From Luteitalea sp. TBR-22 (GTDB taxonomy: Bacteria > Acidobacteriota > Vicinamibacteria > Vicinamibacterales > Vicinamibacteraceae): a stretch of 64,000 bases of DNA. The stretch is from NCBI RefSeq assembly GCF_016865485.1, contig NZ_AP024452.1, positions 5,354,501 to 5,418,500 on the forward strand, written 5' to 3'. The notes beneath the pieces are model-generated. The model made no database searches, was not told the DNA's origin, and worked only from the letters and a program-made list of their open reading frames with translations. The translations under genes were made by a program, and so were the position numbers. Below, piece by piece: positions 5,197 to 41,102 of the stretch. How positions within the stretch are numbered: position 1 is the first letter of the stretch; every line of letters begins with the position of its first letter.

Positions 5197-8064
<2,868 letters not shown>

Positions 8065-8111
8065 GGGCAGTAGGTCTGGGCCGGCGGCACCGGACCCAAA
8101 CCTCGATTGTA

Positions 8112-10659: not shown

Positions 10660-10670
10660 AGGCAGACTCC

Positions 10671-10772
10671 CAGAATCGCAGAATTGCAGAATTTCATGAT
10701 GGCGTGAGGAGGCTCGGCCAGGTGATCGAGATGGTAATGAAATTCTGCCATTCTGAAATCCTGGAATCTTCC
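10671..10772. repeat. AT-rich 8-bp arrays as inverted halves, with 12-bp perfect inverted repeat
   Basis: Left half CAGAATCG, CAGAATTG, CAGAATTT; right half ATTCTGCC, ATTCTGAA, ATCCTGGA. GCAGAATTTCAT (10686-10697) and ATGAAATTCTGC (10737-10748) are perfect inverted repeats around 39 bp. It lies between the kinase and regulator genes and could fold in the transcript. Related to the arrays at 42406 and 54271. Confidence 0.7.
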
Positions 10773-10783
10773 GACCGCCCTGA

Positions 10784-12151: not shown

Positions 12152-12173
12152 GGGAGAGGCTAGACTGGCGGAC

Positions 12174-13766
12174 ATGCACCTGCAGGCCTGGGACCGAGCG
12201 CGACGACCGGCGCTGCGCTGGCTGATCGCCCTCGCCCTGCTGGGGGGTGCCCCGGCAGTCTATCCGAGCGCCTCACCCGCCGCGACGGCGACGACTGGCG
12301 GCCCGGCCGCCCTGCCGCCCGATCTGCCGGTCGCCACCGAGGCCGAAGTGCGCCAGCGATGCGGCACGGTGTGCCACAGGATGCCGCCGCCCGACATCCT
12401 GCCGCGCGCCGCCTGGCGCGACGAGCTGGTCCGCATGCAGCTGATCATGGATGGCGTCCCGGAGCCGGCCGGGATGATGGGCGCCGCCACGGCGATGATC
12501 CCGTTGCCGCCCGACATGCTCCGCATCCAGCGCTTCTACGAGCAGGGCGCGCCGGAGGCACTGCCGGCCCACACGCCGTGGCCCGCCGGGCCATCACCGG
12601 CGGACTTCGACCGCGAGGCCCTGCGCCTCGAGGGACAGCCCGGGGCCTCGCTGCCCGCCGTGGCCAACGTCCGGCTGCTCGATCTCGATGGCGACGGCGC
12701 CGCCGAGATCGTCGCGTCGGACATGCGCGCCGGCCTGGTGATGGCTGGCCCGACGTCCAAAGGGGCAACGCTTCGCGTGATCGCCGAAGTGCCGCATCCG
12801 TCGCACATCGAGCGCGTCGACCTCGACAAGGACGGCCTGCAGGACCTGCTGGTCGGCGACCTCGGGTCGTTCCAGCCCGCCGATCACACCAACGGCGCCA
12901 TCGTGTGGCTGCGGCGCGGCAAGGACGGCGCCTACACGCCCATCACGCTCGCCCGCCAGCTCGGACGGGTCGCCGACGTCCGCGCCGCCGACTTCGACGG
13001 CGACGGCGACCTCGATCTCGTGGCCGCCGTGTTCGGCTGGCGGAAGACCGGCAGCCTGCTCCTGCTGCAGAACCAGACGAAGGACTGGAAGTCCCCGCAG
13101 TTCCTGATCGCCGAGCTCGATCGCCGCCACGGCGCCATCCACGTGCCGGTCACCGACCTCAACGCCGACGGCCGGCCCGACATCGTCGTGCTCTTCGCGC
13201 AGGAGCACGAGACGGTGGCGGCGCTGGTCAACGCGGGCAACGGCACCTTCCGCACCGAGACGATCTTCGAGGGGCCCCACCCGAACTGGGGGTCGTCGGG
13301 CATCGAGCTGGTCGACATGGACAAGGACGGCGACCTCGACGTGCTGCACACGCACGGCGACACGTTCGACGACTTCATCCTGAAGCCGTATCACGGCATC
13401 ACGTTGCTCGAGAACCGGGGCAGTTTCCCGTATGTGGCGACGTCGATTGCCTCGCTGCCCGGCGCGCATCGCGCCCTGGCGGCCGACCTCGACGGCGACG
13501 GCGACCTCGACATCGCGGCGGCGGCGATGGTGGCCGGCGGCGGTGGCCCCGCCGAGGCCACGCTGCCCGCGGTGGTGTGGCTGGAGCAGACGGCGCCGGG
13601 CACGTGGGCCCGCCACCCGATCAAGGTCGGCACTCCTGCCTACGCGACGCTCGACGTCGGCGACATCGACAAGGACGGACGGCCCGATCTGGTGGTCGGC
13701 TCGTTCGCGTTCGGCAGGCCGATGGACTCGGTGGTGGACGTGTGGCGGAATCGCAAGGCGCGCTGA
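12174..13766 (+). CDS. secreted FG-GAP propeller protein with CX3CH haem-like motif
   Basis: 530 residues from the ATG at 12174, with GGGAGAGG upstream. Signal region WLIALALLGGAPAV. Residues 58-85 carry QRCGTVCHRMPPPDILPRAA..W, which matches the haem-binding CxxCH-xxP-LP-W segment seen before FG-GAP propellers in related phyla but with three residues between the cysteines. From about 160 there are VCBS/FG-GAP loops (DLDGDGAAE, DLDKDGLQD, DFDGDGDLD, DLNADGRPD, DMDKDGDLD, DIDKDGRPD). No ASPIC domain. It is transcribed away from the kinase gene with only 22 bp between starts, so the two promoters must lie in each other's coding sequence. Confidence 0.88.
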   Translation: MHLQAWDRARRPALRWLIALALLGGAPAVYPSASPAATATTGGPAALPPDLPVATEAEVRQRCGTVCHRMPPPDILPRAAWRDELVRMQLIMDGVPEPAGMMGAATAMIPLPPDMLRIQRFYEQGAPEALPAHTPWPAGPSPADFDREALRLEGQPGASLPAVANVRLLDLDGDGAAEIVASDMRAGLVMAGPTSKGATLRVIAEVPHPSHIERVDLDKDGLQDLLVGDLGSFQPADHTNGAIVWLRRGKDGAYTPITLARQLGRVADVRAADFDGDGDLDLVAAVFGWRKTGSLLLLQNQTKDWKSPQFLIAELDRRHGAIHVPVTDLNADGRPDIVVLFAQEHETVAALVNAGNGTFRTETIFEGPHPNWGSSGIELVDMDKDGDLDVLHTHGDTFDDFILKPYHGITLLENRGSFPYVATSIASLPGAHRALAADLDGDGDLDIAAAAMVAGGGGPAEATLPAVVWLEQTAPGTWARHPIKVGTPAYATLDVGDIDKDGRPDLVVGSFAFGRPMDSVVDVWRNRKAR

Positions 13767-27700: not shown

Positions 27701-28408
27701 CTGGACCTTCACTTCCTGAACCATGTCGTTGTTCAGGGTGACGATCACGCCGCTGTTGGAGCCGATGTCGATCAGCGCCGAACCGTCGAGGCTGACGGTG
27801 TTGTTCGAGCTGCGGACGCCGTTGACCGTGTAGGCCTGCGTGTTGTTGCCACCCGAGCCGAAGCCGACGCTCTGCATCGTGCTCTGGTCGGGGGCGACGA
27901 CGCCAGGGAGGATGCGGAGCAGCTCGAGCGAGCTGCGGCCGATGATCGACAGCTTGTCGATCTGCTCGGCCCGGAGCACGCCCTCACGGGCGCCCGTCTC
28001 GGTCTGGATGATTTCGGGCGACGAGGTCACCGAGACGACCTCGTTCAGCTGGCCGACCTCGAGCGCGACGTCGACGCCGCGGGTGTCGGCCGGCGACAGC
28101 ACCAGTTTGGTCTGCTCGTACGTCTTGAAGCCCTGCAACTCCACCTTGACGGTGTAGGTGCCCGGGAACAAGCCGCTGAACAGGTAACCGCCACGATCGT
28201 CGGTGACCGTGTTGCGCGTCGCCTTGGTGCCTTCGTCGATGACCGTGACCGTGGCGCCGGGCAACACGCCTCCCTGCGTGTCGCTGACGGTGCCACGGAC
28301 CGTCGCCGTGGTCGAACCGCCTTGCGCATGCGCCAACACCGGCATCGCCAGCGCCAGCGTTGCGGCCGCCACCCACCTCATCCTGCTGAACACTCCGAAC
28401 ATGGACAT
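24797..28408 (-). CDS. Oar-like outer membrane receptor with carboxypeptidase-regulatory domain
   Basis: About 1203 residues; start set at the ATG 28408 (ATGs at 28402 and 28381 possible), signal peptide MRWVAAATLALAMPVLAHAQ. Residues 27-115 form a CarboxypepD_reg-like fold (ATVRGTVSDTQGGVLPGATV, GGYLFSGLFPGTYTVKVELQGF). A plug domain follows (IIQTETGAREGVLRAEQIDKL, NNTQAYTVNGVRSSNNTVSL) and then a long TonB-dependent-type barrel ending in aromatic KYYF-like residues (VEFALKYYF), the usual terminal Phe for BAM. In Acidobacteriota these are numerous and of unknown cargo. Single-gene unit between its own promoter and terminator. Confidence 0.95.
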   Translation of the reverse strand: MSMFGVFSRMRWVAAATLALAMPVLAHAQGGSTTATVRGTVSDTQGGVLPGATVTVIDEGTKATRNTVTDDRGGYLFSGLFPGTYTVKVELQGFKTYEQTKLVLSPADTRGVDVALEVGQLNEVVSVTSSPEIIQTETGAREGVLRAEQIDKLSIIGRSSLELLRILPGVVAPDQSTMQSVGFGSGGNNTQAYTVNGVRSSNNTVSLDGSALIDIGSNSGVIVTLNNDMVQEVKVQSSNYAAEYGSSGMSVSAVTKSGTSRFRGTLYDYIRDSKFSANDRSNSIAGTEKPKDTYQYPGGNVGGPIIIPGWDYAKNRDKFFFFVGYEYQKQNVDSGSRFTTVPTERMKRGDFSELYANTGSNLNMPTVVNIPGGFPGAGEPAPNNNIAPYIHPLGQYLVNNYPNPNYSDPNNRFNYVYSALEPQNRNDLKMRFDWNINNNTKAYVRFARESELNDQPRGGWWGPSQVALPTPNVADSAGRSYSFNLVNVLGPTTTAETLVSYSRLTLDNYYRDPSRVRKDQVGINFEGMFPGASPYLPLQTIHSWGGSQVGDLWSPVNDVFAYNDALQISHKLTKIVGTHGLKFGGSATKLTKEQNFQNEENVQLIYANWASGSTGNTVADMMIGKFAQAEQGTQIPVGNFRAWNFDVFAQDSWKVKPNLTLEYGLRMAYMPNNIEVNGLGGVFDPAFYNANAGTFLDPGTYQQLNGYRYAATGQVEKNLVGNRAPYWMPRVNVAWNIDGDGNNVIRGGYGMFVNRPMGNVEYDTTLRIAPNAYRTGVSPGDVGTDFAGGQGLNYDTLRLVNGFARAGGGAIGVNTPSVDPDERVWPTTHSYSISYARRIPWGQVIEAAYVGTKGRDLVSRTDGNAIPLGGMSSGGVIGNADMRNPLHRSAAAVSVVNSFRPFQAYSGVTIFDYNGITDYNSLQVTLSRQTSSKFSYFGTYTFARSTGSLGGEYSTLDPIDPSRSQGVLESDRTHIFNFSWNAVLPDPIQDGPAILKGILNGWQLSGISTVASGIPIRLRLTGAINTDGMEQYFFGTPSFVGDRTGAFAPVYVSDPRTGNSSLGDKLFDINAIRLPNPAAGEVGDINPPYNLRYPTRMNHDLTIFKDFRLPNENRIQFRVGFFNLFNMAYAGVRSDLTNDIDLMLETQCNVTVNGVPNGAGGTVDNVCDPTGGFRFTDNTIRNFGKINLLRGRRVVEFALKYYF

Positions 28409-28495
28409 CTCGTCTCGTTGATGGGATCGTCGCGCGGCGAAAAGTGGGCTTCTCGTCCGCGCATGGATCAACAACTAGTACTTTCGAGTGAGGGG

Positions 28496-28524
28496 AGTAT
28501 CTGGATCAGGCGGGTGGTTGTCAA
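28496..28524 (-). promoter_or_regulatory. sigma-70-type promoter of the Oar-like receptor
   Basis: Minus strand: perfect TTGACA (28524-28519), 17 bp, GATACT (28501-28496). About 85 bp before the start codon. The area is notably AT-rich against its GC-rich surroundings. Confidence 0.6.
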
Positions 28525-28873
28525 GCACCAGAAGTCATTCAAATGAATGGAGTTAGAGTCGAACGCCCGACAGCCCGCGAGAACCGGGCTTGCTGGCGGC
28601 CTGGCCGGAGGATTGGCACGACCACCTGCCTGTGCGGCCGACCTTCACAAGCGGGCCTGTGGCAAACATTCGGCCCATTCCGAGACAATCGAAGAGATTT
28701 GGACTGACCACTGCCGATGTGCCAGTGGCGAGTGGAGACTCCGGCCGAATGCGCCCCGAGGCGGCGCGCGGCGGCGCCCGTGGTGCCGTGTCCATCGCAT
28801 TGGATCCCGATCCGTGACTCCGCCCCGTCCCGGCGCGACACAGGGCCAGCGACGCGTGGTACAACCGCGGGAT
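28525..28873. other. intergenic space, divergent genes
   Basis: About 350 bp between the receptor promoter and the CRTAC1 gene. An open frame from 28547 runs into that gene but its first 109 codons have no domain, no signal and unusual composition, while a Tat signal begins at 28874. No hairpin or array was found; a plus-strand promoter must lie here but no clear boxes are seen. Confidence 0.5.
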
Positions 28874-30583
28874 ATGTCCCACCCGTGGCTCCCGCGATCC
28901 TCGTCGCGCCGCGCCTTCCTGCGGGCCGCCGGCGCTGCCGGCCTGGCCGCCGCCTGGCCGGCGACGACGCGAACGCAGCAGGGCGCGCTGTTCGAGGTCG
29001 TGCCCCCGTCACGCAGCGGCATCAGTTGGGTGCACGACAACGCGATGTCCGAGTTCCGCTACCTGCCCGAGACCTGCGGCTCGGGCTGCGCCATCTTCGA
29101 CTTCGATGGCGACGGGTGGATGGACCTCTATCTCGTCAACAGCGGCCCGGCCGACTTCTTCACGCCGAAGACGCCGCTGCGCAACGCCCTCTACAAGAAC
29201 AACCGCGACGGCACGTTCACCGACGTCACCGAGCAGGCCGGCGTGCCCGGCGGCACCTTCGGCATGGGCGTGGCCGTGGGTGACTACGACAACGACGGGT
29301 TTCCTGACCTGTTCGTGACCGCCTACGGCAACTGCACGCTGTACCGCAACAACGGCAACGGCACGTTCACCGACGTGACCGAGAAGGCCGGGCTGCGGGT
29401 GCCTGGCTGGACGACCAGCGCGGTGTGGTTCGACTACGACAACGACGGCCGCCTCGACCTGTTCGTGTGCAGCTTCGTCGAGTTCTCACTGAAGACCAAC
29501 GTGTTCTGCGGCGACAACAAGCTCGGGCGGCGCTACTACTGCATCCCGCGCGTGTTCAAGCCGTCGGCCTCGTTCCTGTTCCACAACAACGGCGACGGCA
29601 CGTTCACCGACGTGACCAGGGGCACCGACATCGCCCGCGCGCTCGGCAAGGGCCTCGGCGTGGTGGCCACCGACATCAACAAGGACGGGCAGCTCGACCT
29701 GTTCGTGGCCAACGATACGGTGCAGAACTTCCTGTTCATGAACCGCGGCAAGGGCGCGTGGGAGGAGATCGGCCTGGCCTCCGAGGTCGGCTTCTCGGCC
29801 AACGGCCAGCCGCGGTCGGGCATGGGCGTGGACGCGGCCGACTTCGACCAGGACGGCTGGGAAGACCTGTTCGTCGCCAACGTCGACCAGGAGATGTTCT
29901 CGCTCTACAAGAACCGCGGGAACGAGTCGTTCCAGGACGTGGCGCACGCCAACGGCATCGCCCAGTCCACCCGCCTGCTCAGCGGCTGGGGCCTGAAGTT
30001 CTTCGACTACGACAACGACGGCCACCTCGACCTGATGCTCGCCAACGGCCACCCGGACGACATGATCGAGCACTACTCCACGCAGGTGACCTACAAGGAG
30101 CCGCTGCTGCTCTTCCACAACGAGGGTGGCAAGCTGAAGGACGTCAGCAAGCAGGCCGGCGACGCCTTCGCGGCGCAGTATCCGGCCCGCGGGCTCGCGG
30201 TCGGCGACCTCGACAACGACGGTCGCCTCGACGTCCTCATCAACAACAACGGCGCCGCTCCGCTCCTGCTGCAGAACCGGGCCGGCCAGGGGAATCACTG
30301 GGTGGGCCTGTCGCTGCAGGGCGTGACCTGCAACCGCGATGCGATCGGCGCGCGCATCAGCTGGTCGGTCGGCGGCAAGGTCACCCGACGGTTCAAGACC
30401 GGCGGCGGCAGCTACCTGTCGGCGCACGACCCTCGCGAGATCCTCGGCCTCGGGCCCGCCACCCAGGTGGACTGGGTCGAGATCGCCTGGCCCGCCCCGA
30501 GCACCCGCGTCGACCGCCTCACCAACGTGAAGGTCGATGCGTACCAGAAGGTGGTGGAGGGGAAGGGCGTGGTTAACGTTTGA
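28874..30583 (+). CDS. Tat-exported CRTAC1-type FG-GAP/ASPIC protein
   Basis: 569 residues from the ATG at 28874, where a twin-arginine leader begins ([20 protein letters not shown]). Calcium-loop FG-GAP blades follow: [76 protein letters not shown]. Residues 475-560 are the ASPIC/UnbV domain ([34 protein letters not shown]). Tat export is odd for this family, where Sec signals are usual, and suggests folding or cofactor loading before export. It heads a plus-strand run with a multihaem cytochrome; the gap of 140 bp holds a heptad array. Confidence 0.93.
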
Positions 30584-30628
30584 CGTTTGACGTTTGACGT
30601 TTAGCGTTTGACGTCAGACGTCAGGCGT
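30573..30628. repeat. 7-bp tandem array (TTGACGT class) at a stop codon
   Basis: Eight units: TTAACGT, three TTGACGT, TTAGCGT, TTGACGT, CAGACGT, CAGGCGT. The TGA stop of the CRTAC1 gene (30581-30583) is the first TGA of the array, as at 13909. Confidence 0.88.
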
Positions 30629-30723
30629 TAAAACCGCCCAGCTAGTGCTTTCAGGTGACCCGACCGCAACGCCAGGGCCGCTACTCTGGCGGTTCCGGCG
30701 TTTCCGGCCAATCCAGGTTCCTG

Positions 30724-33700
30724 ATGACCGCACAGATACCGTCTGGGTGGCGAGCGTGGTGGCTCGCCGGCTTCTTCCTCCTCCTTCTCAACAGCGCCTA
30801 TCTGGGCGCGTTTGCGACGGCCTCGGCCTTCTACTACGCCCAGGTGGCGGCCCACGTGATCGGCGGCGCGGTCCTCGGCGCCACCGCCCTGCGCCACGTG
30901 GCCAGGCACCGGGCGGTGCCCGAGGGATGGGGCGTGGCGGCCGGTCCGCTGGTGGTAGCGCTGCTCACCGGGCTGGCGCTGGCCTGGACGGGTGCCACGC
31001 GGCCGTACCGGGGCCTGCTCTACACGCACGTCGCCGCGTCCGTGCTCGGCGTCCTGCCGGTGCTCTTCTGGCTGCTGGCGCGCGCCGGGCGCGTCGGCGC
31101 GCCCACCCTGCCGGGCGCCACGCCGGCCCGCTCGGCCACCCTGATGCGCGCCGCGGTGGCCATCACCCTGCTGGCGATGGTCGGCTCGATCGCCTGGGTC
31201 AGCCGGTACGGCGCCGTCCGGCGCGCCTCCTATCGCATCCAGAATCCGGCCGTGGTGCCCACCTCGATGCAGGAGGAGGGGCCTGGCCCCCGCAGCCCGT
31301 TCTTCCCCTCGCCGGCCAACACGACGCGCGACGGCATCATCCCGTCGAACTTCTTCATGACCAGCAAGGAGTGCGCCCGCTGCCACAAGCAGATCTACGA
31401 CGAGTGGAACGAGTCGGCGCACCACTTCGCGTCGTTCAACAACCAGTGGTACCGCAAGTCGATCGAGTACATGCAGGACACGGTCGGCACCGGCCCGTCC
31501 AAGTGGTGCGCCGGCTGCCATGACCACGCGGTGTTCTTCAACGGACGCTTCGACACGCCGATCAAGCAGCAGATCAACACGCCGGAGGCGCAGAACGGCC
31601 TGAGCTGCACGTCGTGCCACGCCATCACGCACGTCGGCGGCTCGATGGGCAACGGCCACTTCCTCATCGAGTACCCGCCGCTGCACGACCTGGCCGTGAG
31701 CAGCAACCCGCTGCTCCGCTGGGCGCACGACAAGCTGCTGGAGCTCGATCCTCAGCCCCACCGGGAGACGTTCCTCAAGCCGTTCATGACCGACCAGACG
31801 CCCGAGTACTGCAGCACCTGCCACAAGGTGCACCTCGACGTCCCGGTGAACGGCTACCGCTGGATCCGCGGCTTCAACGACTACGACAACTGGCAGGCCT
31901 CGGGCGTGTCCGGCATGGGCGCGCGCGCCTTCTACTACCCGGCCAAGTCGCAGGGCTGCGGCGACTGCCACATGCCGAAGGTGGCCTCGACCGATCCGGC
32001 GGCGAAGTCCGGCCAGCACAAGAGCCACCGGTTCGCGGCCGCCAACACCGCCCTGCCTTTCGTGAACGGCCACGCCAACCAGATGAAGGCCGTGCAGTCG
32101 TTCCTGAAGGACGGCCAGGTCACCATCGACATCTTCGGCCTGGTGCGCACGCCCGGCGGACAGGCCACCGAGGAGCGCCAGGTGGCCGGCAGCGAGCCGC
32201 GCCTCAGCAGCACCTTCGCCGTCGGCGAGGAGTCGATGCATTTCGGCTCCACCACCACCGTCACCACCGCGCCGATGACCGTCGTCGCACCGCTCGACAA
32301 GGCGCAGCCGGCGCTGCGTCGCGGCGAGTCGGTGCGCCTCGAGGTCGTGGTCCGCACGCGCAAGGTCGGGCACTTCTTCCCTGGCGGCACCGTCGACGGC
32401 CACGAGGTGTGGGTCGAGCTCGAGGCGGTCGACAGCAAGGGCCGCACGATCATGCACAGCGGCAAGGTGGCCGACGGGGGCAAGGGGCCGGTGGAGCCCG
32501 GCGCGCACATCTACCGTAGCCTGATGCTCGACGCGGCCGGCAACCCGATCAACAAGCGCAACGCCTGGGCGGCGCGCTCGGTCGCGTACGTGCGCCTCGT
32601 GCCTCCGGGCGCGGCCGACACGATCCACTACCGCCTCGACGTGCCGGCCGACGCCGGCGACTCGATCACGCTCAAGGCCCGGGTGAACTACCGCAAGTTC
32701 GCGTTCTGGACGACGCAGTGGGCGTACGCGGGCGTGCGCGATCCGCACGAGCCGGCCTCGCTCACCACGCGCGACTACGACAACCGCGGCTGGCTGCTGA
32801 ACGGCGACACCTCGAACGTGTCGGGGGGACTCAAGTCGATCCCCGACCTCCCCATCACCGTGATGGCCGAGGCGACGACGACGCTGAAGGTCGTGGGCGC
32901 GAAGGACGCCACCACCGACACACCGGTCGTCACCAGGGCGGTGCGCGAGCGGTGGAACGACTACGGCATCGGCCTGCTGCTGCAGGGCGACCTCAAGGGC
33001 GCCGAGGCGGCGTTCCTCAAGGTGACGCAGGCCGAGCCGGGTTACGCCGACGGCTGGGTGAACGTGGCGCGCGCCCGCCTCAACGAGGGCAACGTCGACG
33101 GCGCATCCGAGATGCTCACGCAGGCGCTGAAGCTGAACCCGACGCTGGCCAAGACCCACTTCTTCCTCGGACAGGCGGCCAGGCAGCAGGGCCGCTACGA
33201 CGAGGCCATCGCGTACTTCAAGGAAGCGGCGCGCCAGTATCCGCGCGACCGCGTGGTGCGCAACCAGCTCGGGCGCGTGTACTTCCTGAAACGGCAGTAC
33301 GAGGCCGCCGTCGCGGAGTTCAAGGCAGCGCTCGACGTCGACACCGAGGATCTGCAGGCACACTACAACCTGATGCTGTGCTATCAGGGCATGGGCAAGC
33401 CGGACCTCGCGGCGCGCGAGCGGAAGCTGTACGAGCGCTACAAGGCCGACGAGGCCGCGCAGGCGATCACCGGCCCCTACCGGCAGATCAACGCCTACGA
33501 CAACAACGAGCGGCAGAGCGTGCACGAGCACGGCGATGCCGCGCCGTACCCGAAGTACTACACGCCGCGCGGCGGCGCGGCGAAGGCGCTCGAGGCTGCG
33601 CGTCGGGCAAGCCCGACGCCTACGAGCCGCGCGACGGCGGCAACGGGCGTCGCGGTGGCGCGTCCGGCAAGCCCGACGCCTGCCCCTGGCGCCGGTGTAG

Positions 33701-33846
33701 CAGCCTCTGATTCCAGGGATGTAGCCGCCGGGCTTGCCCGGCGGTCGTCGCCCCCGCCGACGCCCGGAGCGTCCGACCGCCGACCTGTCCGCCGAAGCGC
33801 AACGCGCGAAGGTGGACTGAAGACTGCCGAGACATCCCCGCAATGA
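30724..33846 (+). CDS. membrane-anchored pentahaem cytochrome c with TPR domain
   Basis: 1040 residues from the ATG at 30724. Four or five membrane spans in residues 9-175 (WWLAGFFLLLLNSAYLGAF, VAAHVIGGAVLGATALRHV, PLVVALLTGLALAW, AASVLGVLPVLFWLL, AVAITLLAMVGSIAWV). Five CxxCH haem sites follow at about residues 217 (CARCH), 262 (CAGCH), 295 (CTSCH), 363 (CSTCH) and 412 (CGDCH), in a cytochrome c554-like arrangement (ECARCHKQIYDEWNESAHH). Beta-rich 440-730, then TPRs at about 740-900. The last 80 residues (RRASPTPTS, RPASPTPAPG) are encoded by REP-like units and look like a recent extension. Expected role: periplasmic electron transfer. The stop overlaps the next gene as ATGA. Confidence 0.93.
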   Translation: MTAQIPSGWRAWWLAGFFLLLLNSAYLGAFATASAFYYAQVAAHVIGGAVLGATALRHVARHRAVPEGWGVAAGPLVVALLTGLALAWTGATRPYRGLLYTHVAASVLGVLPVLFWLLARAGRVGAPTLPGATPARSATLMRAAVAITLLAMVGSIAWVSRYGAVRRASYRIQNPAVVPTSMQEEGPGPRSPFFPSPANTTRDGIIPSNFFMTSKECARCHKQIYDEWNESAHHFASFNNQWYRKSIEYMQDTVGTGPSKWCAGCHDHAVFFNGRFDTPIKQQINTPEAQNGLSCTSCHAITHVGGSMGNGHFLIEYPPLHDLAVSSNPLLRWAHDKLLELDPQPHRETFLKPFMTDQTPEYCSTCHKVHLDVPVNGYRWIRGFNDYDNWQASGVSGMGARAFYYPAKSQGCGDCHMPKVASTDPAAKSGQHKSHRFAAANTALPFVNGHANQMKAVQSFLKDGQVTIDIFGLVRTPGGQATEERQVAGSEPRLSSTFAVGEESMHFGSTTTVTTAPMTVVAPLDKAQPALRRGESVRLEVVVRTRKVGHFFPGGTVDGHEVWVELEAVDSKGRTIMHSGKVADGGKGPVEPGAHIYRSLMLDAAGNPINKRNAWAARSVAYVRLVPPGAADTIHYRLDVPADAGDSITLKARVNYRKFAFWTTQWAYAGVRDPHEPASLTTRDYDNRGWLLNGDTSNVSGGLKSIPDLPITVMAEATTTLKVVGAKDATTDTPVVTRAVRERWNDYGIGLLLQGDLKGAEAAFLKVTQAEPGYADGWVNVARARLNEGNVDGASEMLTQALKLNPTLAKTHFFLGQAARQQGRYDEAIAYFKEAARQYPRDRVVRNQLGRVYFLKRQYEAAVAEFKAALDVDTEDLQAHYNLMLCYQGMGKPDLAARERKLYERYKADEAAQAITGPYRQINAYDNNERQSVHEHGDAAPYPKYYTPRGGAAKALEAARRASPTPTSRATAATGVAVARPASPTPAPGAGVAASDSRDVAAGLARRSSPPPTPGASDRRPVRRSATREGGLKTAETSPQ
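33600..33744. repeat. cluster of three REP-like hairpins inside a coding 3' end
   Basis: GCGTCGGGC-AA-GCCCGACGC with CTAC (33600-33623); an imperfect copy GCGTCCGGC-AA-GCCCGACGC (33660-33679); and GTAG with CCGCCGGGC-TT-GCCCGGCGG (33721-33744). All three are read through in frame by the cytochrome gene, giving SPTP-rich sequence. Confidence 0.75.
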
Positions 33847-35549
33847 TGCGTTCGCCTTTTCTGACCCTTCCGCTGGCGGCCCTCGTGGTCGCCGGCCTCG
33901 TCACCGGCCTGCGCGCGCAAGCGCCGAGATCGGCCGCCGCCGCGCCAGCCGGCGCCATCGCCTTCTCGGACGTCACCGCGCCGGTCGGCGTCACGTTCCG
34001 CCACGCGAGCGGCGCCTTCGGCAAGAAGTACCTGCCCGAGACGATGGGGGCAGGCGTGGTGGTCTTCGACGCCGACGGCGACGGGCGCCAGGACCTGTAC
34101 TTGGCCAACGGCAAGGCATGGCCAGGGAGGCCACCGCTCAGGTCGATGCCGGCGCTGTACCGCAACACCGGCGGCCGCTTCGTCGACGTCACCCGCGCCT
34201 CCGGCCTGGCCGCCGAGATGTACGGGATGGGTGGCGCCGCCGCCGACTACGACAACGACGGCGACGTGGACCTGCTGGTCACCGCGCTCGGCGGCAGCCG
34301 GCTGTATCGCAACACCGGGGGCGGCCGGTTCGAGGACGTCACGGCCAGCGCCGGCGTCGGGCGGGCGGGGTTCTCGACCAGCGCCGCCTGGTTCGACTAC
34401 GACAAGGACGGGCGCCTCGACCTCATCGTCGCCAACTACGTGCAGTGGCAGATCGACAAGGACATCCACTGCACGCTCGACGGCAAGACCAAGTCGTACT
34501 GCACGCCCGAGAGCTACAAGGGCGAGACGCCGTTCCTGTTCCGCAACAACGGCAACGGGACGTTCGAGGACGTGACCCGGAAGTCCGGCCTCTTCGACCC
34601 GACGAGCAAGGGTCTCGGCGTGGGCCTCATCGACTACAACGCCGACGGCTGGCTCGACGTGTTCATCGCCAACGACACGCAACCGAATCGCCTCTACCGG
34701 AACACCGGCAAGGGCACCTTCGTGGACGAGGCGGTGACGGCCGGCGTCGCCTTCAACGAGGCGGGGGTGGCGCGCGCCGGCATGGGCGTCGACGCGGCGG
34801 ACTTCGACGGCTCGGGGCGCCCGGGCCTGCTGATCGGCAACTTCTCCAACGAGATGCTGTCGCTCTACCGCAACGAGGGCAACGGCCTGTTCATCGACGA
34901 CGCGCCGACCTCGAGCCTCGGGCGCGAATCGCTGCTGTCGCTGACCTTTGCGTGCTTCTTCTTCGACGCCGACAACGACGGCTGGGTGGACATCTTCACC
35001 GCCAACGGGCACGTCGCCGACGACATCAATCGCGTGCAGCCGAAGGTCACCTACGCGCAGGCGTCGCACCTGTACCGCAATGCCGGCAAGGGACGCTTCT
35101 CCAACGTCGCCGCCGGCACGGCGCTCGCCGTGCCCACCGTGGCACGCGGCGCCGCGCACCTCGACATGGACAACGACGGCGACCAGGATCTCGTCATCAC
35201 CGTCAACAACGGGCCGGCGCGGGTGCTGCGCAACGACTCGAAGGGCGGCCGTGCGTTGCGGCTGGCGCTGGTCGGCACGCGCTCGAACCGGTCGGCCATC
35301 GGCGCGCAGGTACGCGTCACGGTGGGCGGGGCGACGCGGCTCGCGATGGTCAAGTCCGGGTCGAGCTACCTGTCGCAGAGCGAGTTGCCGCTCACCTTCG
35401 GGCTCGGCGCGGCGTCAAAGGTGGAGCAGGTCGAGATTCGCTGGCCGAGCGGCCAGGTCGATCGCCTCGGCCCGCAGGACGCCGGCCAGACGCTCGTCGT
35501 CACCGAGGCGAAGGGCGTCACGCAGAAGGTGCCGTTCACCCGCCCGTAG
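33843..35549 (+). CDS. secreted CRTAC1-type FG-GAP/ASPIC protein
   Basis: 568 residues, start overlapping the cytochrome stop by 4 bp. Sec signal (FLTLPLAALVVAGLVTGLRAQ). Propeller loops FDADGDGRQD, AADYDNDGDVD, WFDYDKDGRLD, LIDYNADGWLD, AADFDGSGRPG, FFDADNDGWVD, HLDMDNDGDQD, with the family's YLPETMGAG and [27 protein letters not shown]/UnbV at about 475-555 ([29 protein letters not shown]). Closest relative in the window is the protein at 8112. Its stop codon TAG is supplied by the GTAG head of a REP-like element. Coupled translation with the cytochrome suggests a joint function at the cell surface. Confidence 0.94.
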   Translation: MMRSPFLTLPLAALVVAGLVTGLRAQAPRSAAAAPAGAIAFSDVTAPVGVTFRHASGAFGKKYLPETMGAGVVVFDADGDGRQDLYLANGKAWPGRPPLRSMPALYRNTGGRFVDVTRASGLAAEMYGMGGAAADYDNDGDVDLLVTALGGSRLYRNTGGGRFEDVTASAGVGRAGFSTSAAWFDYDKDGRLDLIVANYVQWQIDKDIHCTLDGKTKSYCTPESYKGETPFLFRNNGNGTFEDVTRKSGLFDPTSKGLGVGLIDYNADGWLDVFIANDTQPNRLYRNTGKGTFVDEAVTAGVAFNEAGVARAGMGVDAADFDGSGRPGLLIGNFSNEMLSLYRNEGNGLFIDDAPTSSLGRESLLSLTFACFFFDADNDGWVDIFTANGHVADDINRVQPKVTYAQASHLYRNAGKGRFSNVAAGTALAVPTVARGAAHLDMDNDGDQDLVITVNNGPARVLRNDSKGGRALRLALVGTRSNRSAIGAQVRVTVGGATRLAMVKSGSSYLSQSELPLTFGLGAASKVEQVEIRWPSGQVDRLGPQDAGQTLVVTEAKGVTQKVPFTRP

Positions 35550-35667
35550 GCGCCGGACTTGTCCGGCGCTCTCGTCTGGTGCGGCATCTCTGACCGTCGG
35601 ATACGGCCGACGCCTACGGATCGGCATCGCGAAACATCACTGACCCGTCGGGCAAGCCCGACGGCAA
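35546..35667. repeat. three REP-like hairpins after the CRTAC1 gene
   Basis: GTAG (35546-35549) with GCGCCGGAC-TT-GTCCGGCGC (35550-35569); a degenerate minus-strand unit with GTAG head around 35593-35616; and CCGTCGGGC-AA-GCCCGACGG (35645-35664) followed by CAAC (GTTG on minus). They fill the 146-bp space before the TPR/FG-GAP gene. Confidence 0.7.
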
Positions 35668-35695
35668 CGAACCAGGGCCGACGGCCACCAATTCC

Positions 35696-38600
35696 ATGAC
35701 ACGCACATTCACGGTTCTCGCCGGTCTGGTCACCCTGGGCGTGGTCCTCACGGCGCAGGCGCCGACGCCCCCGGCCCGCGACGTCCGCGAGAAGGCCTGG
35801 CAGGCCAACAACCTCGGCGTGGCGTACCTCGAGCAGTTCAACCACGCGAAGGCGGCCACGCAGTTCGAGGCGGCGCTCGGCATCGACCCGACGCTCGTCG
35901 CGGCGCGCGTCAACCTCGCGATCGCGCGGCTGTACGAGCCGGACCTGCCGGCCGCGCTGAAAGTCGCCACCGCCGCGGCGGCGTCTGCCGGGGCGCCTCC
36001 GCACGCCGACTTCGTCCTCGGGCTGATCGCGCGGCAGGAGAACCGCGAGGACGAGGCGCTCGCGGCCTTCCGGCGCGTGCTCGAGGCCGACCCCGACGAC
36101 GTGGCGTCGCTGGTCAACGTCGGGCAGCTGTTGCTGCAGAAGCGGGCCTACGCCGACGCGGTGCCGGTGTTCACGCGCGCCGTGGAGCTCGAGCCCTACA
36201 ACGTCTCGGCGCTCTACAACCTCGCCGTCGCCCAGACGCGCGCCGGCCAGCGTGAACTCGGTGCCGAGACCACCAGGCGGTTCCAGGCCCTGCGCGAGAC
36301 GGGCTACGGCACGACCTACTCGAACGCCTACCTGGAACAGGGCCGGTACGCCGAAGCCATCCTCTCCACCGGCGCGGAGGCGGACCTGGCCGCTCCGCCG
36401 CCGACGCTGACCTACGCGGCGCGTCCGCTGGCCCTGGGCCCTCGCCCGCCGGTGGCCATCACCGCCGCCGACATCGATCGCGATGGTCGCACCGACCTGA
36501 TCGCCGTGCACGAGGACGGGTTCGAGGCCTACGCGGCTGCCGCCGCCCCGACACCGACCCGCGTCTCGACCGGGACCCTGGCGACACCTGGACTTGGCGC
36601 GCGAGGGGCCGTGGTTGCCGACGTCGACAACGACGGCAAGGCCGACGTGCTGATCCACGGGCGAGGCGGCGTGGCCCTGTGGCGGCAGGTGGCCGGCCAG
36701 GGCGGCGCCTCATTCGGGTTCGAGGACGTGACCCGGGCCTCGACGATGGCCACGACGCTCGATGTGCGCACGGCGGCGCTCGTCGACCTCGATCACGATG
36801 GCGACGCCGACGTGGTGCTGGGCGGCGCGACACGCGACGGCGCGGCGGCCCCGCTCGCGGCCTGGCGCAACAACGGCGACGGCACCTTCGTGGACATGAG
36901 CGCCAGCGCCCTGCCCGGGCAGGCGCCGCTGGTCGCGACGGCCATCGTGCCCACCGACGTGGACCTGCGCCGCGACATCGACGTACTGGTGCTCGGCGAG
37001 GACGGCCGGCTCCGCCTGTGGCGCAACATGCGCGACGCGACCTTCCGCGAGGTGTCGGCGACGGTGGGCCTGGACGCCCTGCCACCGGCGGCGGCGATGG
37101 CGGTCGGCGATGCGACCAAGGACGGCTTCCCCGACATCGCGCTGAGCGCGAAGACCGGCGCGAGCGTCATCGCCGTCGGCGCCTCGAACAACCGCTTCAC
37201 GGCACGACCGCTGCCGGCACTGCCGACCGGCGCCTCGGCGGCGCAGATGGCCGACGCCGACAACGACGGCCTCCTCGACGTCGTCGCCCTGCTGCCCGAC
37301 GGGGTCCACGTGGTCCGGCAGGCCAGCGGCGGCGCCTTCGAGGACGTGTCCACGCGCACCGGACTCACGAGGACCGGCACGGCCGACGCCGCGGCTGCGG
37401 GCCTGGCCCTGCTGGACGCCGACCTGTCCGGCTCGCTCGACATTCTGCAGTGGCGCCACGGCGCAGCGACGTTGCTCGTGGCCGTGGGCGCGGCGCCCGG
37501 CTTCCGCGTCACGCTGCAGGGACAGGTGAGCAACAGGAGTGGCCTCGGCTCGAAGATCGAGATGCGGGCCGGCAGCCTGTGGCAGAAGCTCGAGGCGTCT
37601 GCGGCATCGCCGGCAGCCGCGCCGGCCGACCTGCTCTTCGGGCTCGGCACGCGGCCCTCGCCCGACGTCGTGCGCGTGCTCTGGCCGGCTGGCATCGTGC
37701 AGGCCGAGGCCCTGGCGGCCGACGTGCAGAAGGCGGGCCGGCTCGAGGTGATAGAGCTCGACCGCAAGCCCTCCTCGTGCCCGTACCTCTACACGTGGAC
37801 GGGAGATCGCTTCGAGTTCGTGACCGACTTCCTCGGCGGCGGGGAGATGGGCTACCAGCTCTCGCCGGGCGTGTTCAACACGCCTGACCCGGAGGAGTTC
37901 GTCCGCATCCGGGGCGACCAGCTCAAGGCCCGCGACGGGCGGTACGAACTGCGCGTGACCAACGAGCTCGAGGAGACGCTCTTCATCGACCACCTTTCGC
38001 TGCTCGCCGTCGACCACCCCGAAGGCACCGACGTCTTCCCGCTCGAGGGCATGGTCTCGGCGCCTGCGCCGGGGCTGCGGTACGCCGTGGTCCGCGACCG
38101 GCGGGCTCCCGCCGGCGTGACCGACGCCGCTGGCCGCGACGCGACCGGCGCGGCCGGGAAAGTCGACCACACCTTCGTGGACGGCCTGCCGCTGCTGCCC
38201 GTCCGCGGCTATGCGAAGCCGCACGCGATGACGATCGACCTCGGGGCGAACACGCCGGCGCGTGGCGCCGTGTTGCTCCTCACCGGCTGGACCGACTACG
38301 CGTTCTCGAGCGACAACGTCGCCGCGCACCAGGCCGGGCACGCGCTGCACCCGCCGTCGTTGCAGGTGAAGGACGCCTCTGGCGCCTGGCGCACGGTGGT
38401 CGAGGAGATCGGCGTTCCCGTCGGCCGGCCGCAGACGATCGTCGTCGACCTGACCGACCGGTTCCTGTCGTCGAGTCGCGAGGTGCGCATCGCGACGACG
38501 ATGCGGGTGTACTGGGATCAGGTGGAGGTGGCGACGCGGGTGCCCGACGCGCAGCCCGTGATCACGCGCGCCGGGGCGTCGCTGGCCGACCTCCGCTGGC

Positions 38601-39034
38601 GCGGCTTCTCCGAGCCGACGACGACGCGCGAGCCGTTGACGTTCGATTACGGGAAGGTGACGCCGCACTCGCCATGGAAGCAGATGCCCGGGCGCTATAC
38701 GCGTGAGGGCGACGTGCGGGCGCTGCTCGATGCCGTGGACGACCGCTTCGTGGTGTCGCGTCCCGGAGACGAGATCGCGCTGGCCTTCGAGGCCGCGGCG
38801 TTCCCGGCGGAGCGGGCGGGCTGGACGCGGACGTACCTCCTGCACGGCGACGGGTTCAGCAAGGAGATGGACATCAACTCGCAGAGCCCCGATCAGGCCT
38901 GGCCGCTGCCGTCGCACTCGATGACGCGTTACCCGGCGCCGGCCTCGCCGCTCGACGAGCCGGCCTGGTTCACGCACTACAACACGCGCGTCGTCGGCCG
39001 GCAGGTGCCGCGCCTGGCGGGCGTGCCGCGGTGA
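35696..39034 (+). CDS. secreted TPR + FG-GAP/ASPIC fusion protein
   Basis: 1112 residues. Sec signal (FTVLAGLVTLGVVLTAQA). Residues 30-230 are TPRs (AWQANNLGVAYLEQFNHAKA, DFVLGLIARQENREDEALAA, ASLVNVGQLLLQKRAYADAV). Residues 255-600 are degenerate FG-GAP blades (AADIDRDGRTD, VADVDNDGKAD, LVDLDHDGDAD, MADADNDGLLD), followed by an ASPIC-like stretch (RSGLGSKIEMRAG..LLFGLG). The C-terminal 420 residues open with SSCPYLYTWTGDRFEFVTDF and hold beta-rich sequence with two conserved-looking YELRVTNELEETLFID and EVRIATTMRVYWDQVEV segments, a domain seen at the end of large acidobacterial CRTAC1 proteins. Its stop overlaps the amidase start as GTGA. Confidence 0.93.
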   Translation: MTRTFTVLAGLVTLGVVLTAQAPTPPARDVREKAWQANNLGVAYLEQFNHAKAATQFEAALGIDPTLVAARVNLAIARLYEPDLPAALKVATAAAASAGAPPHADFVLGLIARQENREDEALAAFRRVLEADPDDVASLVNVGQLLLQKRAYADAVPVFTRAVELEPYNVSALYNLAVAQTRAGQRELGAETTRRFQALRETGYGTTYSNAYLEQGRYAEAILSTGAEADLAAPPPTLTYAARPLALGPRPPVAITAADIDRDGRTDLIAVHEDGFEAYAAAAAPTPTRVSTGTLATPGLGARGAVVADVDNDGKADVLIHGRGGVALWRQVAGQGGASFGFEDVTRASTMATTLDVRTAALVDLDHDGDADVVLGGATRDGAAAPLAAWRNNGDGTFVDMSASALPGQAPLVATAIVPTDVDLRRDIDVLVLGEDGRLRLWRNMRDATFREVSATVGLDALPPAAAMAVGDATKDGFPDIALSAKTGASVIAVGASNNRFTARPLPALPTGASAAQMADADNDGLLDVVALLPDGVHVVRQASGGAFEDVSTRTGLTRTGTADAAAAGLALLDADLSGSLDILQWRHGAATLLVAVGAAPGFRVTLQGQVSNRSGLGSKIEMRAGSLWQKLEASAASPAAAPADLLFGLGTRPSPDVVRVLWPAGIVQAEALAADVQKAGRLEVIELDRKPSSCPYLYTWTGDRFEFVTDFLGGGEMGYQLSPGVFNTPDPEEFVRIRGDQLKARDGRYELRVTNELEETLFIDHLSLLAVDHPEGTDVFPLEGMVSAPAPGLRYAVVRDRRAPAGVTDAAGRDATGAAGKVDHTFVDGLPLLPVRGYAKPHAMTIDLGANTPARGAVLLLTGWTDYAFSSDNVAAHQAGHALHPPSLQVKDASGAWRTVVEEIGVPVGRPQTIVVDLTDRFLSSSREVRIATTMRVYWDQVEVATRVPDAQPVITRAGASLADLRWRGFSEPTTTREPLTFDYGKVTPHSPWKQMPGRYTREGDVRALLDAVDDRFVVSRPGDEIALAFEAAAFPAERAGWTRTYLLHGDGFSKEMDINSQSPDQAWPLPSHSMTRYPAPASPLDEPAWFTHYNTRVVGRQVPRLAGVPR

Positions 39035-40029
39035 GCGCGTCGCGCTTGCGGTACGCGGTCGCCGCCTGCCAGACCGACCTGCCCTGCCCGCGCACCCGCG
39101 CGGAGATGGCCCACAACACCGACCGCATCGTCGAGATGATCGATGCGGCGGTGGTCGGCAGCCAGCCGTTCCTGCCGGTGCGGCTGGTGGTGTTCCCGGA
39201 GTTCGCGCATTGCGCGCCGGCCTACCCCGGGCTCGAGGCCCTGATCGAGCACCTCGCCGTCGAGATCCCGAACGAGCACACCGAACGGCTCCAGCAGCGG
39301 GCGCGGCGCCACGACGTCTTCATCCAGAGCGGCTCGATGCTGGAGGTGGACCCGAAGTGGCCGGGCGTGGTGTTCAACACGACCTGCCTCATCGGGCCCG
39401 ACGGCATCCTGTCGCGCTACCGCAAGGTGAACCCCTGGATCCCGTTCGAGGTGCACGCGAGCCCGCACGACCTGCCGGGCTACGACGAGGAGTTGTTCCC
39501 CGTCGTCGACACGCCGATCGGCAGGCTCGGGTGCGCGATCTGTTACGACTGGCTGTTCCCTGAGGCCATACGCCAGCTGGCGGCCAACGGCGCCGAGGTG
39601 CTGATCCGCGTGTCGGCCTACATGGATCCGTGGGGCGCCACCGAGCCGATGAACTGGTGGACGCTGGTCAATCGGACGCGCGCCATCGAGAACATGGCGT
39701 ACGTGGTGGCCGCCAACCAGGGCGCGAGCCTCCGTCACTACCCGCCGTATTCCTGGCCGGGCGGCAGCCAGGTGGTCGACTTCGACGGGCGGCTCCTCGC
39801 GGAAGCCTCGCCGGGGCCGGGTGAGCGGATCGTCGTGGCGCCGGTGGACGTCGACGCGCTGCGGCACGAGCGCGCCTCGCGCGTCGGTCATCACATGCTG
39901 GCCCACCTGCGGACCACGGCGTACCCGGTGTACCAGCAGCCGGGGTTCCCGCCCTCCGGGCACGCGTCACCCATCACCTACGCGAGCAACGTCGCACGCA
40001 CCGAGCAGCGGAAGGGGGAACTGTGGTGA
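39031..40029 (+). CDS. nitrilase-superfamily carbon-nitrogen hydrolase
   Basis: 332 residues from a GTG overlapping the preceding stop. The catalytic triad is clear: E57 (VVFPEF), K132 (SRYRKVNPW) and C171 (GCAICYDWLFPE). This enzyme class hydrolyses amides, nitriles or carbamoyl groups; the FNTTCLIGPDGILSRYRKVN segment is nearer to aliphatic amidase/carbamoylase types than to NAD synthetase or Lnt. No signal peptide, so it acts in the cytoplasm, unlike the exported products of the four genes before it. Tight coupling to the TPR/FG-GAP gene suggests it serves the same pathway. Substrate unknown. Confidence 0.92.
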   Translation: MSASRLRYAVAACQTDLPCPRTRAEMAHNTDRIVEMIDAAVVGSQPFLPVRLVVFPEFAHCAPAYPGLEALIEHLAVEIPNEHTERLQQRARRHDVFIQSGSMLEVDPKWPGVVFNTTCLIGPDGILSRYRKVNPWIPFEVHASPHDLPGYDEELFPVVDTPIGRLGCAICYDWLFPEAIRQLAANGAEVLIRVSAYMDPWGATEPMNWWTLVNRTRAIENMAYVVAANQGASLRHYPPYSWPGGSQVVDFDGRLLAEASPGPGERIVVAPVDVDALRHERASRVGHHMLAHLRTTAYPVYQQPGFPPSGHASPITYASNVARTEQRKGELW

Positions 40030-40050
40030 GCGTTCGGGTGCGGCGATCCC

Positions 40051-40120
40051 GCCTCCCGCCTCCCGATTCCCGCCTCCCGCCTCCCGACTCCCGATTCCCG
40101 ATTCCCGATTCCCGACTAGA
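40051..40120. repeat. 7-bp tandem array (GATTCCC/GCCTCCC class) at a stop codon
   Basis: Ten units: GCCTCCC four times, GATTCCC four times, GACTCCC, and a last GACTAGA that contains the stop (CTA, 40116-40118) of the minus-strand propeller gene. It fills the space between two convergent genes. Confidence 0.9.
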
Positions 40121-41102
40121 TGCGATAGATCGTGTCGTCGGAGCAGGCGACCATCGAGCCGTCGGTCGGATCGAAGGCCACGCCGATCAGGCCCGCGCCG
40201 CTGACGACCAGTGAGCGAGCCCCGTCGGGGGTGATGCGATGGATGCCGCTGTCGCCGGCGAGCGCGTCGACGACGTGCAGCACGCCGTGACGGTCGAAGG
40301 CCAGGCCCTGGGGTCGTCCGAAGCCCTCGAGCCAGCGCGTGACGACGCCATCGGGCGTGATCCGATAGAGGGCGTCGCAGGAATTCAGCGTCGGCGCCGC
40401 GACGATCACGTCGCCACCGGGATCGACCGCCAGGTGGAAGGCGGCAACGCTCGGCGGGATGGCGGCCAGCGGCCGATGACGACCGTCGGGCGTCACGACG
40501 TGGACCGTGCCGGATCGATCCCCCACGAGCAGGTCGCCGTCGGCCGTGAACGCCAGGCCGAACGCGACGCCCAGGTTCTCGGCAAACTTCGTCGGCTCGC
40601 CGTCAGCCGCGATGCGCGACACCGTGCCCTCGAACCGGCTCGAGACGTAGAGGTGGCCGTCGGGCCCGAAGGCGAGCGAGGTGGCATTGCCGAGCCCGGA
40701 GACGAACGCCTCCCGCACCCCATCGGCCCCGATGCGGTACACCGACACGGGCGTTTGCTGGCCGCGCTGGCCGCTCAGCGTCGCATAGACGCGGCCTTCC
40801 GCGTCGATCGCCGGGCTGTCCACCTGGTGGACGCCGGTCGTGATCGCCCGCCCCACCGAGACGAGTGGGGTGCTGCCCTCGAGCCCCTCGATCGCGAGGG
40901 GTTGCTCGCCGCCCGGGGTGTCGGCAGGCACTTCGATCGCGACGCTGCGCGACGAGGCGCGCAGCACGCGGGCGGCCTGGCCCCCGAGCGTCACCTCGGG
41001 AACGCGACCGGGCCGCACGTCGAAGCCGCTGCCGCTGACGACGAGCCGCCCGCCCGGCGTCACGGCCCTGGGTTCGATGCGATGGATGTCGGCGCGGGGC
41101 AT
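40116..41102 (-). CDS. IPT/TIG + NHL/SMP-30-type beta-propeller protein
   Basis: 328 residues from the ATG at 41102. Residues 8-75 form an IPT/TIG-like Ig fold (IEPRAVTPGGRLVVSGSGF, VTLGGQAARVLRASSRSVAI). Residues 90-328 are six propeller repeats of the NHL/SMP-30 type (SLAFGPDGHLYVSSRFEGTV, GLAFTADGDLLVGDRSG, HLAVDPGGDVIVAAPT, GLAFDRHGVLHVVDAL, GVAFDPTDGSMVACSDD). No signal peptide and no lactonase metal residues can be assigned, so a binding role is as likely as an enzyme. An open frame extends upstream but consists of heptad-coded PDSRLPT repeats and was not used. Confidence 0.85.
   Translation of the reverse strand: MPRADIHRIEPRAVTPGGRLVVSGSGFDVRPGRVPEVTLGGQAARVLRASSRSVAIEVPADTPGGEQPLAIEGLEGSTPLVSVGRAITTGVHQVDSPAIDAEGRVYATLSGQRGQQTPVSVYRIGADGVREAFVSGLGNATSLAFGPDGHLYVSSRFEGTVSRIAADGEPTKFAENLGVAFGLAFTADGDLLVGDRSGTVHVVTPDGRHRPLAAIPPSVAAFHLAVDPGGDVIVAAPTLNSCDALYRITPDGVVTRWLEGFGRPQGLAFDRHGVLHVVDALAGDSGIHRITPDGARSLVVSGAGLIGVAFDPTDGSMVACSDDTIYRI

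Follow-up and report, generated by a model that had tools for sequence, protein, structure and literature searches.

Pentahaem cytochromes of the PHC family, comprising ExtKL, Gsu2801 and the pentahaem proteins of cable bacteria, are described in the pertinent study as having an Ig-like domain, a c552-like structure and possibly catalytic haems, and are linked there to the archaeal nanowire AvECN (PMC11976967). CRTAC1 genes are reported to adjoin hydrazine-synthase-like genes, a different cluster from the present one (available text of PMC12758564), and ASPIC/UnbV domains occur in several copies in Poribacteria, in an account that mentions no cytochrome in its accessible part (PMC3909097). The subject of this work is a row of five genes (P1–P5) in a 64,000-nucleotide stretch of Luteitalea sp. 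TBR-22 (Acidobacteriota; contig NZ_AP024452.1, positions 5,354,501 to 5,418,500), hereafter the window, at whose core a membrane pentahaem cytochrome (P2) is followed by a CRTAC1-type propeller (P3). The component families are known. Because gene order and co-occurrence recur across the sampled genomes, the set is a recurring module of variable order and membership and not an accident, and it is probably a real, still uncharacterised system. To our knowledge, no function has been assigned to the bacterial CRTAC1/ASPIC proteins, a large family.

A scan of contigs from one genome per species yielded 510 confirmed relatives of P2; the best 80 of these 510 loci were examined and, together with the window, make up 81 rows. 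P2 itself contains five CxxCH motifs and is matched by the Pfam families Cytochrome_C554 and TPR. Its AlphaFold2 (AF2) model, computed from a 78-row alignment (A1, without L063 and L082, which have N inside, and the partial L046), has a predicted local distance difference test (pLDDT) score of 82.5 and comprises five helices fit to span the membrane, a haem domain, a β-rich domain and TPRs. This arrangement fits a PHC core extended by two domains, a transmembrane (TM) one that probably binds a b haem and one made of TPRs. As in Thermochromatium tepidum c552, Geobacter ExtKL/Gsu2801 and the sPHC/lPHC of cable bacteria, five c-haem motifs precede a β-rich domain, but the front five-TM domain, the rear TPRs and the pairing with CRTAC1 are described for no PHC member in the available text of that study (PMC11976967). 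A search of the window's own genome with P2 returned one full-length match, and the remaining 24 matches cover the TPR region alone.

Counted strictly, five CxxCH motifs are present in 74 of the 81 rows and four in 7/81, and the aligned Cys/His columns are kept in 80–81 rows. Residues 231–274, around haems I–II, form a dense invariant or near-invariant block (SFNNQ.YRKSIEYMQ...SKWCAGCHDHA), and the haem region holds seven further conserved histidines (233, 234, 268, 321, 346, 370 and 435), which, judging from the alignment, could act as sixth haem ligands. The identity of the domain rests on Foldseek and on a profile search, because the VIA-align list (highest Z 17.8, for a designed TPR) is filled by TPR chains. 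Foldseek matched the model to the T. tepidum pentahaem c552 (5ze8; E 7.6e-9, probability 1.00, TMt 0.61, root mean square deviation (RMSD) 8.6 over 559 columns), the sole non-TPR chain among the 50 rows listed. The profile search also placed 5ze8 first (E 3.3e-5, covering haems I–III), followed by the multihaem selenoprotein MccSep (E 0.003).

The helices of the membrane domain span residues 7–29, 35–62, 70–89, 93–120 and 134–169. Two histidines, H44 on helix 2 and H102 on helix 4, each about ten residues from the modelled start of its helix, are conserved in 75/76 and 76/76 rows, respectively (the 78 aligned rows less L012 and L035, which have no N-terminus). This conservation makes the pair probable ligands of a b haem, which would lie towards the periplasmic side, since the N-terminus is assumed to be cytoplasmic. 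The 12 mid-type divergent relatives examined, from a set without L151 and L154 (short N-terminus), have a second histidine pair, at TM2 +18 (by eye) and TM4 +14. We presume this pattern to be comparable with that of di-haem cytochrome b membrane subunits, with which it shares four histidines on two helices, one pair being 14 apart, but the other pair is 18 apart and the five TM helices are fused to a multihaem c domain. P2 differs further from those subunits and their two bis-His sites: its position 116 is a W, the TM4 +14 histidine is kept in just 12/76 window-type rows, and the window-type proteins mostly keep the first pair only. The shortest relatives of the cytochrome (762–784 aa, six loci) contain one TM-like stretch, without the histidine pair.

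Beyond the haem domain, the β-rich domain has invariant residues at G549, H550, F552 and P553, a GH.FP motif that aligns with 5ze8 at a non-significant score only. Directly after the TPR domain, the sequence NNERQ..HEH (residues 927–936) contains H934 and H936, conserved at 0.98 of the 81 rows. The pLDDT falls below 50 at 945–956 and 963–1040, in a tail that extends past the end of most orthologue matches.

The gene next to the cytochrome was followed in the 78 of 81 rows with at least 300 bp after its stop (L082 included). A CRTAC1 frame starts within 350 nt of the cytochrome in 64 of these 78, window included, and the junction is an ATGA, GTGA or TTGA at the stop in 43, a one-base overlap in four, some other spacing in 16, and that of L082 in the last. 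Genes of the FG-GAP/CRTAC1 type are numerous in the window's genome, with 13 distinct FG-GAP_3 frames in 6.47 Mb; even at this density, a gene picked at random would seldom be followed by one. Two apparent cytochrome-CRTAC1 fusions, L082 (1500 aa) and L132 (1547 aa), were rejected because their frames cross N stretches (2 Ns at the junction and 52 Ns, respectively).

P1 (FG-GAP_3 E 1e-62, UnbV_ASPIC 7.5e-13) and P3 (1.7e-47 and 3.2e-20) resemble CRTAC1/ASPIC-UnbV proteins in carrying both domains above the Pfam cut-offs, and the sole solved relative of P3 at E ≤ 0.1 is human CRTAC1 (9etn). What sets P3 apart is its clade. In a tree of 113 CRTAC1 sequences, free of identical sequences and of eight survey loci possibly repeating others, all 64 cytochrome-adjacent tips (55 from L009–L088, eight from survey loci and P3) fall within a clade of 67 (support 0.844), itself nested in a clade of 68 (support 0.994), whose extra tip is L094, the window gene at 8112–9995 (−). 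Two of the three non-adjacent tips within the 67 (L026, L027) likewise lie shortly downstream of a cytochrome. By its place in the tree, P3 belongs to a CRTAC1 clade that travels with the cytochrome; this protein group thus has a defined partner, a single membrane-anchored haem protein, and a testable redox setting.

P1 has a narrower distribution. Near its N-terminus lies the twin-arginine translocation (Tat)-type motif SRRAFL, and it contains seven DxDxDG-like loops. It forms a clade with L009, L136 and L070 (support 1.0), and a gene of its type stands immediately upstream of the cytochrome in the window, L009 and L136 only, all of one genus; in L070 the relative lies elsewhere in the cluster. 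P1 was accordingly rejected as a core member, and its distribution marks it as a genus-level addition to the cluster. A grouping of the CRTAC1 proteins of L165 and L169 with P1 was discarded, its support being just 0.099. More distant CRTAC1-like genes occur upstream of P4 in L058, L060, L088 and L142. The window itself holds further FG-GAP genes: the one at 8112–9995 (−), the nearest CRTAC1 outside the cytochrome-adjacent clade, and one at 11844–13766 (+).

P4 lies near the cytochrome in 41 of the 81 rows, downstream in 15 (window included) and upstream in 26 (L052 included), a count that takes in L079 and L081, where it is about 5 kb off; it is found in 30 of the 43 rows whose flanks reach at least 5.5 kb past the cytochrome and 3.3 kb ahead of it. 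The amidase follows in seven loci and in the window, and in L029 it is inverted near the cytochrome. A sample of 396 Acidobacteriota genomes gave the same association on a wider scale. The cytochrome (E ≤ 1e-60) occurs in 106 of them, split by score into 43 full-type (at least 372 bits) and 63 divergent. The profile of the P4 C-terminal part is found in 136 of the 396 genomes overall, in 41 of the 43 full-type (Fisher p 5e-19) and in 47 of the 63 divergent ones (p 1e-12; both values ignore genome relatedness). The P5 subfamily (E ≤ 1e-90) is present in 38 genomes, 36 of which hold P4 (p 2e-16, with the same disregard of relatedness), and the amidase immediately follows P4 in at least 13 genomes, lying within a few kilobases of it or elsewhere in others.

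At the 20 loci fetched from the 43 full-type genomes, CRTAC1 comes next in 16 and beyond an N gap in one; this set shares records with the 78 rows, so the counts are not additive. Twenty loci were also fetched from the 63 divergent genomes. CRTAC1 stands directly beside the cytochrome in 12 of the 19 evaluable ones, downstream in nine and upstream in three, and directly beside it no such gene is found in the other 7/19; L152 runs off its contig. Two distant genomes with a divergent cytochrome have the orders P4-amidase-cytochrome (G086) and P4-amidase-CRTAC1-CRTAC1-cytochrome (G383). Their cytochromes (L165 and L169, respectively) are short one-TM proteins without the five-helix domain and are still accompanied by P4 and the amidase; the CRTAC1 genes nearby are on the same strand in L169 and inverted in L165.

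An open reading frame (ORF) scan places P1–P5 on one strand (+) at 28874–40029 of the window, in a contig of 6.47 Mb (Table 1). The initial annotation had described five co-directional genes here, and Pfam recovers in their products the FG-GAP/ASPIC, c-type cytochrome, TPR and C-N hydrolase families that it had named. The export that it had proposed is also apparent: the motif of P1 is of Tat type, P3 and P4 have Sec-type N-termini (by eye) and P2 is membrane-anchored by its five model helices. Its statement that three of the four later starts overlap or nearly touch the preceding stop has to be reduced to two, the 4-nt overlaps of P2/P3 (ATGA at 33843) and P4/P5 (GTGA at 39031); P1 and P2 are 140 nt apart, and P3 and P4 146 nt.

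Table 1. Features of the P1–P5 locus, in window coordinates
Feature	Position	Strand	Evidence
P1, Tat-exported CRTAC1-type FG-GAP propeller with ASPIC/UnbV tail, 569 aa including start	28874..30583	+	Pfam, motif
P2, membrane pentahaem cytochrome with TPR tail, 1040 aa, core of the system	30724..33846	+	CxxCH motifs, Pfam, AF2 model
P2 N-terminal five-TM domain, aa 1–168, probable b-haem ligands H44/H102	30724..31227	+	AF2 helices, conservation
P2 pentahaem c domain, aa ~205–440	31336..32043	+	haem Cys/His columns, Foldseek, profile
P2 β-rich, probably Ig-like domain, aa ~530–725, GHFFPGG motif	32311..32898	+	model strands, conservation
P2 TPR domain, aa ~735–925	32926..33498	+	Pfam TPR_2 2.7e-18; VIA-align
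P2 low-complexity tail with REP-like palindromes	33556..33846	+	model, sequence
P3, Sec-exported CRTAC1 propeller, 568 aa, dedicated cytochrome partner	33843..35549	+	Pfam, ATGA overlap, clade membership
P3–P4 gap with REP-like palindrome	35550..35695	none	sequence
P4, Sec-exported, TPR, FG-GAP, weak ASPIC and unnamed C-terminal β domains, 1112 aa	35696..39034	+	Pfam, alignment, AF2
P4 jelly-roll domain, aa ~796–951, CBM32/35/F5-8C-like fold	38081..38548	+	VIA-align
P5, cytoplasmic C-N hydrolase of formamidase/aliphatic-amidase type, 332 aa	39031..40029	+	Pfam, solved relatives

Pfam finds TPR and FG-GAP_3 in P4, and UnbV_ASPIC at 22.5 bits, under the cut-off of 23.4. The C-terminal 428 residues were modelled with a pLDDT of 90.8, and their alignment has 41 rows (alignment A2 is without L052, and A3 without every second row). 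For this part, a PDB sequence search at E ≤ 1 came back empty, and Foldseek listed nothing below 1e-3. With VIA-align, the jelly-roll matches CBM32, CBM35 and F5/8C chains at Z 8.0–9.2 over 108–132 residues, and a phage tail protein comes top at Z 9.8; models without a clear match typically reach Z 7 to 8, so these values are only slightly above noise. The CBM32/35-like fold of the model is thus a weak hint of glycan binding, and gives modest support to the substrate capture that the initial annotation had suggested for this system.

P5 belongs to the nitrilase superfamily (Pfam CN_hydrolase, 2.2e-40), with formamidases as its nearest solved relatives (E 1.4e-24), and E57, K132 and C171, which we take to be the nitrilase catalytic triad, are invariant across P5 and seven relatives. 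It shares with formamidases and aliphatic amidases this sequence relation and the E-K-C residues, but scores 117.1 of 406 bits against the NCBIfam equivalog for formamidase and 94.3 of 427 bits against that for amidase. Both cut-offs are missed by far, so the family does not assign its substrate. At L144 (12609–13679) the amidase frame opens with what resembles a leftover P4 terminus (LLHADGFSKEMDLNSSSP), which suggests that P4 was lost there by deletion.

Two loci bear on the direction of electron flow. In L045 (10359–15651) and L046 (2156–7596), the cytochrome is followed, in the usual place of CRTAC1, by two pyrroloquinoline quinone (PQQ) dehydrogenases and a lactonase/YNCE-like propeller gene. 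Three of the four dehydrogenases were recognised by Pfam (E 1e-181 to 3e-191) and the fourth by cluster; in L046 the first dehydrogenase and the last gene were assigned by clustering only. PQQ dehydrogenases pass electrons to cytochromes or quinone, and the exchange of CRTAC1 for them would, by analogy, be the main clue to the direction of transfer. As to the substrate, a xylose-isomerase-like neighbour family, with seven members near cytochrome loci (one scanned by Pfam), may be a pointer together with the CBM32-like fold of P4.

The reading that we favour, with a probability of about 0.42, is that of a conserved quinone-linked periplasmic oxidation module in which propeller partners feed electrons to P2. 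P2 would be placed in the inner membrane. One b haem or more would sit in its five-TM domain, close to the periplasmic face and next to the five c haems, which would be of the PHC (c552/ExtKL) type and located in the periplasm. P3, joined in this genus by P1, would be periplasmic and bind to P2, where the TPR tail may be the docking site. The propellers may be a dehydrogenase partner, or may hold the substrate at the haem site, and electrons would travel from the c haems to the b haem and then to quinone. P4 might capture or position a larger, possibly glycan-related substrate, and P5 may hydrolyse an amide-type product in the cytoplasm. Of the surface electron transfer put forward in the initial annotation, the electron-transfer part is supported by the five c-haem motifs, the conserved histidine pair and the PHC resemblance, and the surface part stays a hypothesis.

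Several observations weigh against this reading. CRTAC1 is missing from its place in 14 of the 78 usable rows, among them L026 and L027, where it starts about 360 and 770 nt on, and L034, with a truncated copy at the contig end; in nine of the 78 it was not recognised nearby, nor was it in three of the 20 full-type survey loci (L134, L135, L145). The amidase is missing from most cytochrome-bearing genomes, and P5 is cytoplasmic. The Fisher values for P4 and the cytochrome treat the genomes as unrelated, the PQQ replacement is confined to two related loci, and the RMSD of the 5ze8 superposition is large. The Pfam scan found no cofactor domain in P1 or P3, and we know of no CRTAC1 protein that is an oxidoreductase. 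ExtKL and the cable-bacteria PHCs are, moreover, proposed for outward or long-distance transfer, the opposite direction (PMC11976967). Recurrence across genomes, the check attached to the initial annotation, came out mainly in favour of the unit: cytochrome-CRTAC1, P4 and amidase recur in Acidobacteriota in several orders, but CRTAC1 and the amidase are not always there and P1 is restricted to one genus.

A narrower version, that this is an undescribed quinone-coupled respiratory enzyme in which the CRTAC1 calcium propeller is the substrate-oxidising or substrate-presenting periplasmic subunit of a b-c pentahaem cytochrome, is doubtful. If true, it would provide a redox role for bacterial CRTAC1/ASPIC proteins, and P4 and the amidase would extend it to a pathway whose compound is linked to a glycan or bears an amide.

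The opposite direction of flow is unlikely, though the best placed of the rivals: P2 would oxidise menaquinol through the b haem, and the PHC domain would hand the electrons on to an acceptor in the periplasm or outside the cell, CRTAC1 and P4 serving as surface scaffolds. The roles proposed for ExtKL and the cable-bacteria sPHC, and the relation of the fold to AvECN, speak for it (PMC11976967), as does a gene for a TonB-type outer-membrane receptor, on the opposite strand just upstream of the P1–P5 row. Apart from that receptor, however, Pfam recognised no component of a porin-cytochrome conduit, neither a porin nor a second multihaem cytochrome, in the five proteins and three neighbours, and its c554 matches in the whole genome number only three, other multihaem families not having been searched. 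The PQQ dehydrogenases in the place of CRTAC1 point inward.

Somewhat less likely again is a catalytic multihaem reductase or oxidase, in which an open PHC haem would convert a small nitrogen or sulfur compound, as in HAO or hydrazine-synthase-like systems; CRTAC1 would serve it as a structural propeller subunit, and P5 would act on a related nitrogen compound. The dense invariant block around haems I–II would suit such a site, and cable-bacteria PHCs are grouped as potentially catalytic (PMC11976967). In the available text of PMC12758564, moreover, multihaem or c554-type proteins are encoded beside the CRTAC1 gene in the hydrazine-synthase-like clusters of other bacteria, as at the present locus. 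An open haem is not implied, however, seeing that the seven extra histidines could fill the sixth positions; the cytochrome architecture is another one, and Pfam reported neither HZS alpha/beta-gamma nor HAO in P1–P5, no HZS profile having been run.

It is improbable that the propellers and TPRs build an extracellular lattice, as a surface assembly or adhesion system, with the haem protein serving as its anchor or as a redox sensor. Surface proteins often contain FG-GAP repeats with calcium-type loops, TPRs and CBM32-like domains, all of which are present here, but the conserved haem ligands and the conserved histidine pair of the membrane domain argue for redox turnover. A chance run of unrelated genes is scarcely credible: the gaps at two of the four junctions, the genus-specific P1 and the patchy presence of P4 near the cytochrome would agree with it, but order and co-occurrence recur across families in the phylum-wide sample, which refutes it for P2–P3 and P4–P5.

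A literature search recognised no description of this gene set, which is weak evidence, since most subscription papers and all bioRxiv preprints lie outside its coverage. With P2 and its relatives, a cytochrome family known from the discussion of bacterial nanowires and extracellular electron transfer gains a branch that is anchored in the membrane and bears TPRs.

Some of the loci carry unexpected taxonomic titles. L087, a contig of a metagenome-assembled genome titled Bifidobacterium breve, has a cytochrome-CRTAC1 locus of the Acidobacteriota type, and L028 and L073 bear the title Acidimicrobiia, probably through mislabelling or the mixing of bins. In L049, a Poribacteria-titled contig, five tandem related genes (7512–13148) lie a few kilobases downstream of the cytochrome, and the one scanned has PD40 propeller repeats.

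As regards non-coding features, Rfam gave no match at gathering thresholds in window positions 28000–41000. A scan of 28400–40200 found six terminator sites, where shuffled sequence gave a mean of 4.1; the sole + strand site is just inside P2 (30748–30769) and one − strand site is in the P3–P4 gap. One promoter-like site was found, on the − strand. A palindrome resembling repetitive extragenic palindromic (REP) elements, CGTCGGGCAAGCCCGACG, occurs at 33601–33618, 33661–33678 and, inverted, 33721–33744 in the 3′ tail of P2, and at 35646–35663 in the P3–P4 gap. Ten exact places are listed in the genome, and with up to two mismatches there are 46 + 55 matches by strand, where one palindrome may count on both, against 2 + 3 for the reversed control. 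Spurious-looking frames elsewhere in the window, around 24500 and 41000, contain repeats that read as ESGVGSRESGVGSRES or DSRLPTPDSRLPTPD.

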